Shown piece by piece: positions 28,333 to 33,541 of a stretch of DNA of 64,000 bases. Under the pieces are notes generated by a model. It was given only the letters and a program-made list of their open reading frames with translations. It was not told the DNA's origin and searched no databases. Source of the DNA: a bacterium. Lineage in GTDB: Bacteria; Bacillota; Clostridia; Lachnospirales; Lachnospiraceae. The position numbers and the translations under genes were made by a program. The stretch's first letter is position 1; the number at the start of each line of letters is the position of its first letter. The stretch lies in contig JAMPAG010000001.1 in the NCBI GenBank assembly GCA_023667365.1, forward strand, positions 233,001 to 297,000, read 5' to 3'.

Positions 28333-28354
28333 CAAAAAGAATAAAGTCTTTTTG
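28333..28354 (+). terminator. terminator after the hybrid kinase gene
   Basis: AAAAAGA and TCTTTTT form a short AT-rich stem around ATAAAG just after the stop codon. It is a weak candidate. Confidence 0.45.
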
Positions 28355-28361
28355 TGTCATC

Positions 28362-28454
28362 CCATAGGCTGTCGGTGACATGCGGGTTGCCTTCAAAGAA
28401 CCGCACACCGATATAAGTATTGTAAGCTGGTGCTGTAATACGGTAATGCTATGG
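28362..28454 (+). ncRNA. candidate three-way-junction leader RNA
   Basis: A closing stem CCATAG (28362-28367)/CTATGG (28449-28454) encloses two hairpins: TCGGTG/CACCGA (28372-28377 with 28406-28411), extended by TGCGGGTT/AACCGCA, and GTATT/AATAC (28417-28421 with 28437-28441) with inner AGC/GCT. It does not match the conserved cores of cyclic di-GMP, SAM, TPP or purine riboswitches as I know them. A strong terminator starts two bases after it, an arrangement typical of attenuators. Confidence 0.5.
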
Positions 28455-28456
28455 AG

Positions 28457-28506
28457 AGCGGCAAAATTCCACGGATGGAGAAACGGGGAATTTTGCCGCT
28501 TTTTGT
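28457..28506 (+). terminator. strong terminator or attenuator upstream of the FliD-like gene
   Basis: AGCGGCAAAATTCC (28457-28470) and GGAATTTTGCCGCT (28487-28500) form a perfect 14-bp stem followed by five T residues. It lies about 100 bases before the next gene and directly after the candidate structured RNA. Confidence 0.85.
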
Positions 28507-28603
28507 GTGGCGGAACCGCGGGTGCGGATGGACGTCCGCGAAAACGGCAGGCAGAAAAAAGCGTGTGGCAGTCATTTTTTGACAGACGGGAGGAGAGACA
28601 CAA

Positions 28604-29266
28604 ATGAGAATTACGACACAAATGTTAAACGAGACGGCAAGAAAGGCGGGCGTACCGCTTCATACGACCAGCATGTTGAGTTATGTACAGAACAACGGTA
28701 AAACAAATACGCTGCCCTATGATCTGAATGCGGGGAACGAGTTAGAAGCATTCCGCAGGACGCGGGCGTATGAAAAACAGGAAGATGCGGCAAAGCGTCT
28801 GGAAGGGACGGCGAAGGAACTTGCCGGGCAGGGAAAGGACAACATCTATGAAAAGCCGGAGGACAGGGATGCGCTCACCGGGAAGGTGACAGAGCTTGTC
28901 CGGCAGTACAATGAGGTATTATCCGGATTTCAGGGAAGCAGCGATCTGATGGATACGTTTTACCGGCAGAACATGCAGTCTCTTGTGGCGGATCACGGGA
29001 AAGAACTGCAGAAAATCGGGATCACGGCGGACAAAAACGGTCAGCTTTCCGTCAATGAGCAGACCTTAAAGGATGCGGACTTAGAAGCGTTGAAGCAGAC
29101 GCTTTCGGGGGAGGATGGTTTTGCGGATTCCCTGTCGTTTCTCGCTTCTAAGATCGCAGATTATGCTTTTTCCAATCAACAGAGCGCCCAGAATCTATAT
29201 CAGTCGGACGGCAGCGCATCTGCCGCACTCATGCGCTATACAAACCAATATAACGCATGGGGATAA
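28604..29266 (+). CDS. FliD C-terminal-like protein
   Basis: The 220-residue product starts MRITTQMLNETARKAG, like the N-terminal ends of flagellin-type proteins. Its later half (VTELVRQYNEVLSGFQGSS, LQKIGITADKNGQLSVNEQ, DGFADSLSFLASKIADY) follows the pattern of the FliD C-terminal domain. It lacks the length of a full filament cap. I infer an extracellular or flagellum-associated role. The start has GGGAGGAGAG upstream. It heads a set of poorly characterised genes to 33541. Confidence 0.6.
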   Translation: MRITTQMLNETARKAGVPLHTTSMLSYVQNNGKTNTLPYDLNAGNELEAFRRTRAYEKQEDAAKRLEGTAKELAGQGKDNIYEKPEDRDALTGKVTELVRQYNEVLSGFQGSSDLMDTFYRQNMQSLVADHGKELQKIGITADKNGQLSVNEQTLKDADLEALKQTLSGEDGFADSLSFLASKIADYAFSNQQSAQNLYQSDGSASAALMRYTNQYNAWG

Positions 29267-29306
29267 CATCCGGGAAAGACAGAATACGGCTGAAATGAGG
29301 GGTGGC

Positions 29307-29831
29307 ATGAGAGTAACGATTTGTGGAAACAGTTCCGAGGACAGGGTAAGGATCAGAGAATTACTGGAGGAATATCAGCAAAAAAACGGACAGGCAATCG
29401 AAATTCAGGAATATTCGGAAACGGCGCCGCCGGACTATCCGGGTCAGACGACCGTATCCTTTCCGTTTGTCGGAGGGGAACATCTTTTGGACGTCTCTGA
29501 TATTCTGTATATTGAGACGGACAGGCATCAAAACATTTTTCACACGCCGCGCGCGTCCTACCGTCTTTATCAAAAGCTGGATGAAATCGAAAAAAGACTG
29601 GCGCCGTACGGATTTGTGAGGGCGCATCGGAGTTTCCTTGTCAATATGCGTTATATCAGAAAGATCAGCAGTTATGTGCTGAGGCTGTCCATGGCGGCGG
29701 AACGGACGGATTGCTTTGCGGAAAACATGGGCGGGCAGTCTTTTGTGGAGATTTCCGTCCCCAAATCCCGCTATGCGCATGTGAAAAAAGCATATGCGGA
29801 TTACTTAGGAACAAGCGGACAAAGGGAATAA
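29307..29831 (+). CDS. LytTR DNA-binding protein with shortened receiver
   Basis: The 174-residue product begins like a response regulator (MRVTICGNSSEDRVRIRELL) but the receiver stops after about 50 residues, with no phosphoacceptor aspartate. A LytTR domain follows (about 55-165: DVSDILYIETDRHQNIFHT, YGFVRAHRSFLVNMRYIRKI). LytTR proteins bind direct repeats in promoters. Without a receiver it may act without phosphorylation. The ATG follows GAGGGG. It sits inside the FliD-like gene set and may be its regulator. Confidence 0.8.
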   Translation: MRVTICGNSSEDRVRIRELLEEYQQKNGQAIEIQEYSETAPPDYPGQTTVSFPFVGGEHLLDVSDILYIETDRHQNIFHTPRASYRLYQKLDEIEKRLAPYGFVRAHRSFLVNMRYIRKISSYVLRLSMAAERTDCFAENMGGQSFVEISVPKSRYAHVKKAYADYLGTSGQRE

Positions 29832-29922
29832 TAGGCGGACGAAGCGGGCAAAAAACAGACATGTGACAGAACGGATCATGTGGATAAAGCAGATTACAAG
29901 CGGGCAAAGCGGTTGCGAAAGG

Positions 29923-30897
29923 ATGTGGGACAGAGACGTGAATACATTTTATGTAAACTATATGACCAAAACATTTGGCGGACTCGCACAAAACCGGTCT
30001 TTTCCGGGGCTGGCAGGCAATCGATGCGGCAGAGGAATGGCGGACGCAATCTTAGAAGCGGCAAAGCGCGCGGGCGTGGCGGATCAGGCGCAGGCAGCGC
30101 GCGTGAACGGGTCGGGTGCGGAGAAGTCAACGGTTGGGCCAAATACGGAAGCAGAAACGCAGACCGGCGAAAGGACCGCTGCAGATCAGGCAGGCGGGGC
30201 GGATGCAGAGACACCGACAGGTGAAACGAACACGGTAAGGCAGACAGGCGGGATGGATACGGAAGCACTGACAGGCGGGAATACCGCAGCGAGGCAGACA
30301 GGTGGTACGAGTACGGAAGCGCTGACAGATAGGACGAATGCAATGCGGCTGGCAGTTGATGCAATGACGCCGGAAGAATATAAGGAATATATTCGGGAGC
30401 GGATCTTCGCGCTGCCGATGCACGTTTCCCATATGCAGGACGCCGTCACGATCACGATTTCGGATGAGGGGCTGGCGGCGATGAAGCGCGATGCGGAGTA
30501 TGAGGAGTGGGTATTGAACGATCTGCGCGCCGGATGGGCGTGGGAAAATCCGTGGGCGCGCTATTTGGGCGGCGCTTATTCCGTCATTCATTACGGCGCG
30601 ACAAAAGAGGAATGTCATGCCGAAATGTGGAATGCCGGTTTCCGGCACGGAGACGGGAAGGGATTATTTGAGAGCATGTCAGGCAATGACGAAGAAGATA
30701 AGAAAAGAAAATCCGAGATTATTGTCAGACCGGACGGCTCCCGGTATCTGGTTATCAGCGAAGTGATCGGCGGCATGAAGGTCACGGTACTGAGCATAAA
30801 ACTCACAAAGCCGGAGGAACTGATGCAGAAGGCATCCGATATGGAGAACAGTGCGGCAGTGCAGGCGCTGCAGAAAACGGGGACAATGCCGGTGTAA
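29923..30897 (+). CDS. DUF6033-like protein with tandem repeats
   Basis: The product of about 325 residues has an N-terminal region of unknown role (VNTFYVNYMTKTFGG), four 18-residue Thr/Gly-rich repeats (bases about 30136-30350), then a conserved part MTPEEYKEYIRERIFALP, ITISDEGLAAMKRDAEYEEW and IVRPDGSRYLVI that resembles DUF6033. The start is uncertain: the frame opens with GTG at 29863, and ATG at 29923 or GTG at 29938 are alternatives, none with a convincing ribosome site. Function is unknown. Confidence 0.6.
   Translation: MWDRDVNTFYVNYMTKTFGGLAQNRSFPGLAGNRCGRGMADAILEAAKRAGVADQAQAARVNGSGAEKSTVGPNTEAETQTGERTAADQAGGADAETPTGETNTVRQTGGMDTEALTGGNTAARQTGGTSTEALTDRTNAMRLAVDAMTPEEYKEYIRERIFALPMHVSHMQDAVTITISDEGLAAMKRDAEYEEWVLNDLRAGWAWENPWARYLGGAYSVIHYGATKEECHAEMWNAGFRHGDGKGLFESMSGNDEEDKKRKSEIIVRPDGSRYLVISEVIGGMKVTVLSIKLTKPEELMQKASDMENSAAVQALQKTGTMPV
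30136..30350 (+). repeat. 54-bp in-frame tandem repeat (four units)
   Basis: Units of 18 residues such as GGMDTEALTGGNTAARQT are repeated four times with drift in the middle of the DUF6033-like gene. Confidence 0.75.
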
Positions 30898-30937
30898 AGG
30901 AAATTGCCCCAATTTATATGGCAGGGAGGGAATAATC

Positions 30938-31579
30938 ATGTATCTTGATTCGACTATTTTGGTCAACACAATATATGGAAATTCGAAAATAACACAAACA
31001 CAGTATGTGCACCATACGCAGAGCGCAGGATTTTCGCTCACATCCGATACACACCATACACAGAGCGCAGGATTTTCGCTCCATATCGGAAGCGGAGAGG
31101 ACGGCGACAAAATGCTGTCCGCGGCTTCAGGCAGAGGAAGCGGCGGTATGACCGTCTTTGAGCCCGCTGATTTCAATCCGGAACAGCCCGTATATAAGGT
31201 ATGCACTTGGGATGAAGCAGGAAATCGGACGGAGCGCATGGTGGATATTGCATATGTGAATCCGCATCACAGCGATGAGGCGGAAATGTTTGCCTATTCC
31301 TGTTATGCGGCAAAACGCGGCGCTTATCCGGAAGCGGCGGATTTATTTTTACGGACACGGGGGTATTTCCACGAAACATTGGCAGACACAGCGGATTGGT
31401 CAGAATCCGGAATGGATACCATGGATTCTGCAGAGCGGAGTTCCGCTTTACATTCCGCTTTGCGGAACGTAAAACAGGATTGGACGAAGCTGGCTGCCGC
31501 CATCATGCAGATGCAGTATGAGGGCGGCAATCTCAAAGGTTATCTGGAATATAAGAAATTTGTTGATTTTTTTGCGTAA
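30938..31579 (+). CDS. small protein, paralogue of the gene at 31658
   Basis: The 213-residue product starts at an ATG after GGGAGGG. A duplicated 14-residue segment beginning HHTQSAGFSL (42-bp repeat, from 31010) lies near the N-terminus. The core PVYKVCTWDEAGNRTERMVD and NPHHSDEAEM aligns with PVYLIKGLDAKGNEFSYEVD and NPSRCSYNEL of the protein at 31658, so the two are distant paralogues. No signal peptide or membrane helix is seen. Function is unknown. Confidence 0.6.
   Translation: MYLDSTILVNTIYGNSKITQTQYVHHTQSAGFSLTSDTHHTQSAGFSLHIGSGEDGDKMLSAASGRGSGGMTVFEPADFNPEQPVYKVCTWDEAGNRTERMVDIAYVNPHHSDEAEMFAYSCYAAKRGAYPEAADLFLRTRGYFHETLADTADWSESGMDTMDSAERSSALHSALRNVKQDWTKLAAAIMQMQYEGGNLKGYLEYKKFVDFFA
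31010..31093 (+). repeat. 42-bp in-frame duplication
   Basis: Two copies starting at 31010 and 31052 both encode HHTQSAGFSL followed by four variable residues. Confidence 0.75.
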
Positions 31580-31602
31580 AGATTTCGATGTTTTGCAGAT
31601 AA
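31577..31602 (+). promoter_or_regulatory. sigma-28-like promoter candidate
   Basis: TAAA (31577-31580, overlapping the upstream stop) and GCAGATAA (31595-31602) are 14 bases apart. The flagellar sigma consensus is TAAA-N15-GCCGATAA, so one -10 base and the spacing differ slightly. It would drive the gene at 31658. Confidence 0.4.
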
Positions 31603-31657
31603 CAAATGGAATAAAAAAAGAGATCACAAAGAATTGGTAAGCAAAAGGAGCGGACAT

Positions 31658-32374
31658 ATGCAGATCGCAAATACAAATCTAATGGCAGAGATACCGAATA
31701 CAACCGCGGCGCAGGCGGGAGCAGGGACAAAGAGCGCCGGAGCAAGAAACATTGGGGCAAGAAACGCGGGAACAAGGAATGCCGGAGCAAGAAGCGCCGG
31801 AATAGGATTCCAACGGCAGTCGGAAAGAGCAAAAAGTACAATAAATACAGAAAGCGCAACAAATACAGCGGATGCAGCGAATACAGGCGTTGACTTCTCT
31901 GGTCAAGTCGTGAAATGCGTCTCCGCGGGCGGACAAAAGGTGATGCTGAACTCGGATGCATTGATGTCTTACGCGAGTCCGCAGACAGGGGAATCCGTCA
32001 ACATTTATCGGGCGGAGCAGTACACGAAGGACAACCCGGTCTATCTCATAAAAGGACTGGACGCAAAGGGAAACGAGTTTTCTTATGAGGTGGATGCGTC
32101 GAAGATCAATCCTAGCAGGTGCAGTTACAATGAATTGATGGTATTAAATGTGGAGACAGGCGGCAATACGCCGGAAAATTACTTACACGCCGTTGCCATG
32201 CGGGATAAGGCAGGTGTTTCCAGCTACTTTGAACAGGCGGATTATTTGTCGGCGGGGAAGGCGGCGCTTATGGATCTCCGTACAGTCGGCGCATGGGATT
32301 CTTATTTATCCATGGACAAATGGCTTGGGCGGATCATTGCTTATGCCGCAAAGCAGGCGCAAGAGCTGTTTTAG
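31658..32374 (+). CDS. small protein, paralogue of the gene at 30938
   Basis: The 238-residue product has an N-terminal linker with 5-residue repeats of the AGARN type (bases about 31735-31800), then a core shared with the protein at 30938 (PVYLIKGLDAKGNEFSYEVD, INPSRCSYNELM), then a C-terminal helical part ending YAAKQAQELF. The ATG at 31658 follows AAAAGGAG. Function is unknown; the sigma-28-like promoter before it hints at a link to motility. Confidence 0.6.
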   Translation: MQIANTNLMAEIPNTTAAQAGAGTKSAGARNIGARNAGTRNAGARSAGIGFQRQSERAKSTINTESATNTADAANTGVDFSGQVVKCVSAGGQKVMLNSDALMSYASPQTGESVNIYRAEQYTKDNPVYLIKGLDAKGNEFSYEVDASKINPSRCSYNELMVLNVETGGNTPENYLHAVAMRDKAGVSSYFEQADYLSAGKAALMDLRTVGAWDSYLSMDKWLGRIIAYAAKQAQELF

Positions 32375-32445
32375 CGGAACTGTTTTTTGTGCGGTTTCCG
32401 GAAAAATAGGCGTTTTATGCCGTCTCTCTTAGGAAATGTGCTTTT

Positions 32446-32473
32446 TTTACCGATATATAAATAACGGTATAGT
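32446..32473 (+). promoter_or_regulatory. promoter region of the gene at 32501
   Basis: TTTACC (32446-32451) and TATAGT (32468-32473) are 16 bases apart. The same stretch contains ACCGATAT, close to the Bacillus sigma-D -10, but with a poor -35. A TACCG/CGGTA dyad surrounds it. Confidence 0.4.
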
Positions 32474-32500
32474 TTGGTCTGAATCAGGGAGGATGATGAC

Positions 32501-33541
32501 ATGGCGATAGGCGTAAGGGGATGGAACTCCGAAAGCTCGGCGGTCAAAACGTATCAGAGCGGCAATCGTGAGATCAAAAGAATCACATGCTATGACGCGG
32601 AAGGAAATGCAACAGGGACCATCAGTATTTCGCGTTCCAAAAAGCCGGACAAGACAAAGACGAAGAAGCTGAATTATAATTTTAAGGAAGTTTCGGCGTT
32701 CCTTATGAAGGCGAAGACTTCGGGCAGCGCAAGGCGCGCGGTGGCGATGGCGCAGAGAAAGGTCATCCAGCTGCGCAAAAAGTTAAAAAAAGGCGAGTAT
32801 AACGATCAGGAATTAGAGAGTGCGCTTGCGCACGCGGAGGCAATTGAACGCGCGGCAAAGAAGCACTTAAAGAATCTGCAGAAAGAAGAACGTACCAAAC
32901 GGCGGATGCAGAGCGAAGCGTTTGAGGACGATGTTTTTGAGGAAGAGCAGGATCGTTCCTACGGGGACATCGTGCAGGAAGCCATGCGGGAGAGCGGTAA
33001 CGGCGCAGGTGCCGACACATCCTTAGCGGACGGTATGCAGAATATGGTGCAGGACGCGGTGGAGCATGGAATGCCGGATTCGTTTGAGGAGCAGATTGCG
33101 TACGGACAGGCACAATTAGAGCGGCTCACAGAACTTGTGCAGCAGGGCGTACAGGAGACGATGGAGGAGCTGTTAAGCGACACGGTGGAAGAAGTCTTAG
33201 CTTCCGCCAAAGGCACGTTTGAGATGGTGGAGGAATCTTTAGAGGTCATCCCGATCAAGCCGGAGCCGGAAGAATTTGCCGCCAAAAAGAAAAAGCACCG
33301 TTCCGATGTGATGCGCGATATTGTGGAAGCGGACATGAAATATCTGAAAGCGTTTTTTGACCGCCTCCAAAAAGAAAAACAGAGCGCGGCGGGCGGCTTT
33401 GGCAATTCCGGTTCCTCGTCCGGTATCGGATATTCCAATGTAAGCGCAGGCGTCTCTTTGGAATTAAACGGCGCGTCCGTGCCGGTCAAGACGCAGGTTC
33501 CCGCGCCGCCGGAGGGCGGCAGCGTCGATGTCGCGATATAA
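32501..33541 (+). CDS. lineage-restricted coiled-coil protein
   Basis: The 346-residue product starts after GGGAGGATGATGAC. Residues about 22-45 (REIKRITCYDAEGNATGTIS) recall the D-x-x-GN core of the two upstream small proteins. A basic helical part follows (KKLNYNFKEVSAFLMKAKTS, MAQRKVIQLRKKLKKGEYND), then acidic helices, and a Gly/Ser-rich tail. No signal peptide or membrane segment is visible. I do not recognise a named family. The gene is followed by hairpin modules and a terminator, so it closes the set. Confidence 0.6.
   Translation: MAIGVRGWNSESSAVKTYQSGNREIKRITCYDAEGNATGTISISRSKKPDKTKTKKLNYNFKEVSAFLMKAKTSGSARRAVAMAQRKVIQLRKKLKKGEYNDQELESALAHAEAIERAAKKHLKNLQKEERTKRRMQSEAFEDDVFEEEQDRSYGDIVQEAMRESGNGAGADTSLADGMQNMVQDAVEHGMPDSFEEQIAYGQAQLERLTELVQQGVQETMEELLSDTVEEVLASAKGTFEMVEESLEVIPIKPEPEEFAAKKKKHRSDVMRDIVEADMKYLKAFFDRLQKEKQSAAGGFGNSGSSSGIGYSNVSAGVSLELNGASVPVKTQVPAPPEGGSVDVAI

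Follow-up and report, generated by a model that had tools for sequence, protein, structure and literature searches.

A six-gene block encoding putative sigma-28-linked flagellar accessory proteins, including a predicted headless FliD, in a Lachnospiraceae genome

A draft genome of the Lachnospiraceae (G000; 3.29 Mb, 128 contigs) contains a block of six adjacent genes, mostly devoid of recognized relatives, among sensory genes, which raises the questions of what their products do and whether they form a single system. The block, whose genes are designated A to F (Table 1), is located in a 64,000-nucleotide stretch of contig JAMPAG010000001.1, hereafter the window, and is flanked by genes for chemoreceptors, a hybrid kinase, an NlpC/P60 hydrolase, and a kinase/LytTR pair. 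A first reading, based on the sequence only, had proposed a single undescribed six-gene system with a role in motility or surface assembly. The genes are separated by 28 (A-B), 106 (B-C), 40 (C-D), 78 (D-E), and 126 bp (E-F). Comparison with the orthologs present at locus L009 revealed 60–82% amino acid identity and an excess of differences at the third codon position, indicating that all six genes are indeed coding and under purifying selection.

Table 1. Features of the gene block and of its upstream regions (window coordinates).
Feature	Position	Strand	Description
A leader	28340–28507		Conserved in 4/4 relatives
A-leader sigma-28-like –10	28404..28417	+	CACACCGATATAAG; kept in 4/4; poor –35; ~187 bp upstream of A
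A-leader intrinsic-terminator-like hairpin	28458..28504	+	Kept in 4/4; RNA fold z –5.45
Block A–F	28604–33541	+	Six adjacent genes
A	28604..29266	+	220 aa; FlgL-like start (MRITTQMLN), then predicted FliD D1-type domain; putative headless FliD
B	29295 (or 29307)..29831	+	178 aa (or 174 aa); DNA-binding protein of the LytTR type, lacking most of the receiver
C	29938 (or 29923)..30897	+	319 aa; C family; low-complexity linker in N-terminal half
D	30938..31579	+	213 aa; D/E family; orthologs in L008 and L009
E	31658..32374	+	238 aa; D/E family; residues 1–91 disordered, 92–238 confident domain
F sigma-28-like promoter	32430..32455	+	–10 ACCGATATAT; –35 TAGG, imperfect
F	32501..33541	+	346 aa; coiled-coil protein, F family

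Searches of Pfam, NCBIfam, and PHROG assigned A to FliD_C and B to LytTR. Since C to F had no Pfam or NCBIfam match above cut-off and no convincing PHROG match, no enzyme family was detected in the block, in agreement with the absence of enzyme motifs noted in the first reading. Matches of E and F to IMP dehydrogenase, Pentapeptide, Macoilin, and DivIVA were weak, far below cut-off, and were rejected, and an Rfam search of the region returned no match. Repeats are present at positions 30100–30345, 31000–31080, and 31735–31802, within the N-terminal portions of C, D, and E, respectively; they are shorter or absent in the L008 and L009 orthologs.

The FliD_C match of A (E 3.5e-7, above cut-off), which bears out the FliD C-terminal-like label initially given to this gene, covers only positions 116–193 of the 236-position profile, corresponding to the C-terminal motif. 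FliD_C was matched by 18 of 26 A relatives and FliD_N by none of the 26 family members. The A family profile also matches FliD of P. aeruginosa (5fhy; E 1.7e-9). The AlphaFold2 model of A (pLDDT 73.6, pTM 0.69) consists of one helical bundle and one small beta pair. Comparison of this model with known structures by VIA-align returned FliD for all ten best rows (Z 14.7 to 11.0), the first non-FliD row having a Z of 9.3; helical bundles may score Z ~13 from their arrangement alone, and the FliD reading of A therefore stands on sequence and fold jointly. Foldseek used with the model alone found no match with E <0.3, though FliD headed the list. In FliD, the four-helix bundle is the D1 domain, the leg comprises D0-D1, and the head comprises D2-D3 (PMC7316729). 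The top VIA-align match, E. coli FliD 5h5v (Z 14.7, rmsd 2.3, 141 residues), aligns with A through residues spread over chain positions 43–411, and most of the intervening residues, in the D2-D3 head region, are unmatched. With 220 residues and a single bundle in the predicted model, A has no D2-D3 head. On the basis of this model, A is a predicted headless FliD, reduced to the D1 four-helix bundle, and differs in its size and in the absence of FliD_N and of the head from the filament cap protein FliD (HAP2; PF02465 and PF07195). A separate full-length FliD of 848 residues, containing both Pfam domains, is encoded by the same genome on contig C70, between FlaG and FliS. A second headless FliD paralog is encoded on contig C40. 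An additional FliD-like motif stretch is present on C40 (16785–17186), within a 468-aa frame.

The N-terminus of A had been described as flagellin-like. The first residues do resemble those of FlgL from the same genome (MRITNKIMQNN), and the MRITT.M.N start is invariant across the seven closest A proteins, but Flagellin_N (PF00669) had no Pfam match in A and the likeness to FlgL is confined to these residues. A match to OspG_kinase was below the Pfam cut-off (E 9e-4), was found for only one of the 26 family members, and was rejected. Outside the Lachnospiraceae, the A profile mostly matched long frames, which are probably true FliD proteins, in addition to two weak matches in short frames (G359 and G483). 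Our literature search found no description of short FliD paralogs in Lachnospiraceae.

Gene B encodes a LytTR DNA-binding domain (Pfam E 1.3e-18), in common with response regulators of the AgrA/LytR type. In contrast to these regulators, most of the receiver is lost in B, including the phosphoacceptor Asp, as seen in the alignment with orthologs from L008 to L010; in the latter, the receiver is full-length but degenerate, with the phosphoacceptor Asp replaced by Asn. The description of B as a receiver-poor LytTR regulator was thus correct. LytTR genes directly adjoin A-like genes in the clade of the window and in G001, G022, and G031, and are located within 1.5–3.6 kb of A-like genes in G041, G086, and G106. 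Given the local rate of LytTR genes, direct adjacency has a p value of ~3e-4, which is rough because this rate is based on two genes.

The remaining four genes belong to families that the available models do not capture. Gene C had been labeled DUF6033-like. The Pfam model of DUF6033 (PF19498) did not match C, and hhalign gave a probability of 53% (single-comparison E 1.3e-4). At one G144 locus, matches to the DUF6033 model and to the profile of C coincide. Membership of C in DUF6033 is thus not supported, and the profile comparison makes it a possible remote relative at most. None of the proteins is a full member of the families tested, since A lacks FliD_N and the head, B lacks a working receiver, and C fails the DUF6033 model. 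The DUF6033 profile itself had no match in the PDB, and no mention of the family was found in our literature search. The core proposed to be common to D and E was recovered by hhalign (E 3e-4) and by intermediate sequences matching both proteins, which indicates that D and E are distant paralogs at the sequence level. Comparison of the E domain predicted by AlphaFold with the PDB gave nothing convincing (best Z 5.1 over 52 residues), which does not imply a new fold. No profile match backed the proposed D-x-x-GN resemblance of F to D and E. F forms a coiled-coil family of its own, which, in 391 genomes sampled across the class, was found only in Lachnospiraceae. Inspection by eye revealed an apparent shuffling of modules in L117 (8941–10335) and L130 (7274–8050), a (S)FTxxEW...MREE stretch being located C-terminal to the C domain in one genus and ahead of the D/E core in another.

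The six genes stay together in relatives only in part. The entire block and its flanks are retained in L009, and the block is retained in L008 as far as the short contig extends. L010 harbors A, B, C, and F without D, E, and the hybrid kinase. The full order is restricted to the close relatives L008 and L009. Members of these families are dispersed in other genera, occurring in pairs or in different clusters, including DUF6033 with F (G023, G049, G086, and G092), A with F (G041), E-like with DUF6033-like (G076), and D/E-like with C-like genes (G029), in addition to a cluster in G106 that combines A, C, DUF6033, and FliS. These recurring pairs indicate that the block represents a single cluster from a broader, reshuffled repertoire rather than a conserved six-gene system, and the initial proposal of a single system was abandoned. 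The G106 cluster (L042, 4967–14202) contains seven further small proteins, including DUF6033 and FliS, with A and C, and adjoins a kinase/LytTR pair. In the genome of the window, contig C51 (L170, 5992–10968) carries consecutive genes for a 1123-aa protein, an additional flagellin, and a second FliS, which is divergent and resembles that of the G106 cluster. Another unnamed family (~200–223 aa, with a start like MSNVSSVGSNYTDAY) is present near A-like genes in two genera (L048, 8331–9002; L049, 10182–10793).

The reported general sigma-28 consensus is TAAA-N-CCGATAT, and Butyrivibrio has a close variant of it (PMC3720852). At the fetched loci, sigma-28-type promoters, called for a score of at least 11, were found upstream of 30 of 96 family genes versus 6 of 550 other genes of the same loci (Fisher p 1.8e-21). 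DUF6033 genes account for many of the top scores and provide the strongest signal; these are relatives or neighbors, at other loci, of the genes of the window rather than those genes themselves, an observation that we counted against the interpretation favored below. In the window, the –10 element of the sigma-28-like promoter proposed upstream of F was confirmed, since it is kept with its surroundings in 4 of 4 orthologs as TTAGGAAA-N-GCCGATATAC, with an imperfect –35. The conserved leader of A contains a sigma-28-like –10 followed by ~85 nucleotides ending in a strong terminator hairpin and is, based on these elements, a candidate short RNA or attenuator. A TGTCA...TGACA inverted repeat is located just upstream of this conserved element. 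No good sigma-28 site was found in the window for B to E, whose expression would consequently depend on read-through.

We surveyed 150 Lachnospiraceae genomes, one per genus, using FlhA (PF00771) as a marker of flagella, which was found in 82 of them. All carriers were positive for FlhA, with hypergeometric p values that overstate the strength of the association because genera are not fully independent: 55 of 55 genera for A-like genes (p 7.9e-21), or 51 of 51 (p 9e-19) after removal of four genera matched only in a long frame that may be a true FliD; 20 of 20 for F (p 1.7e-6); 12 of 12 for C (p 4.8e-4); 9 of 9 for E (p 3.5e-3); both genera for D (p 0.3); 29 of 29 for the union of C to F (p 1.6e-9); and 45 of 45 for DUF6033 (p 6.5e-16). 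Thus, no carrier of A, C, D, E, F, or DUF6033 devoid of FlhA was seen among the 150 genera. Among flagellated genera, 19 of the 20 that harbor F also harbor DUF6033 (p 1.5e-5). This association and the promoter enrichment support, as a correlation, the part of the first reading that proposed a role in motility or surface assembly.

Based on these sequence comparisons, we consider it moderately likely that the block encodes accessory proteins co-expressed under sigma-28 and probably exported by the flagellum, drawn from a repertoire spread over the Lachnospiraceae. The strict co-occurrence with FlhA and the sigma-28-type promoters would also fit plain parts of flagellar assembly, A being a minor subunit of the junction, the cap, or the filament, as its predicted FliD D1 fold and FlgL-like start might suggest, and C to F lineage-specific structural proteins or chaperones, all of them needed for swimming and none released. 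However, the families are patchily distributed among flagellated genera (F in 20, C in 12, and E in 9 of 82), and D and E are missing in L010, indicating that flagella do not as a rule require them. A complete set of FliD, FlgK, FlgL, and FliS is moreover encoded elsewhere in the genome. We regard this alternative as rather unlikely.

The first 20 residues were compared for 87 family proteins, with starts guided by ribosome binding sites, 400 controls, and six flagellar axial proteins from the genome of the window. S, T, N, and Q accounted for 36% of the residues in the family, 37.5% in the axial proteins, and 19% in the controls, and charged residues for 14%, 13%, and 25%, respectively. A hydrophobic signal segment was found in none of the 87 family proteins versus 30% of the controls. 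This composition is as expected for type III export signals, although it is not proof of export. It argues against the improbable alternative that the products are cytoplasmic regulators or scaffolds of motility signaling, since cytoplasmic controls differ in this respect; A and C to F also lack any signaling domain, even though A-like genes of four genera have a LytTR gene as their immediate neighbor, chemoreceptors and kinases border the block, and F is a coiled-coil protein. That unrelated accessory genes lie side by side by chance, as restriction of the six-gene order to the closest relatives might suggest, is very improbable since the families recombine in other groupings across genera, all track flagella, and are, for all six genes, under purifying selection.

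According to the favored interpretation of sigma-28-linked accessory proteins, the companion genes would be switched on with the late flagellar regulon, in this case with a LytTR regulator alongside. Since Sec signals are missing and the N-termini are polar and probably disordered, exit of the products through the flagellar export channel appears most likely, and we infer an extracellular role. The A-C-DUF6033 cluster of G106 includes a homolog of FliS, the flagellin export chaperone family. C to F contain some cysteines and no recognized flagellar domain, which we counted against this interpretation. The D1 domain of FliD corresponds to that of flagellin, and A, which would keep only this domain of the FliD leg, may act as an adaptor or as a minor subunit, either axial or at the tip. 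C, D/E, and F may be accessory cargo that decorates or modulates the flagellum, or is released from it. DUF6033 proteins have in common with the window families their genomes, neighborhoods, sigma-28-type promoters, and similar N-termini.

A known parallel is provided by the flagellar co-expressed determinants (Feds) and the flagellum-secreted proteins of Campylobacter, which are non-flagellar proteins encoded by sigma-28-linked genes and are exported by the flagellar apparatus or dispensable for motility (PMC9856085). By analogy, the companion proteins described here would work in a similar manner. As for the Feds and FspA of Campylobacter jejuni, the genes occur with flagella in all carriers (150 genera surveyed), and they may be under sigma-28 control, as suggested by predicted sites that are strongly enriched for the families, conserved for F, and missing for B to E. 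In contrast to Campylobacter, which belongs to a different phylum, the host of the window is Gram-positive; no sequence family is known to be common to the two, and export of the companion proteins is a prediction. A bolder extension, which we advance only tentatively, is that flagellated Lachnospiraceae secrete a large, modular, and rapidly reshuffled set of non-motility proteins through the flagellum, used as a general device for secretion, headless FliDs serving as dedicated tip or channel adaptors.

Lachnospiraceae are common gut bacteria whose flagella have mostly been considered in connection with motility and the sensing of flagellin. If many of their genera also produce companion proteins that are controlled by sigma-28 and probably exported, Campylobacter-like bacteria would cease to be the main known example of non-motility proteins leaving the cell by flagellar export. 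Our analysis also describes a predicted headless derivative of FliD and places the uncharacterized families DUF6033, C, D/E, and F in a concrete and testable context.
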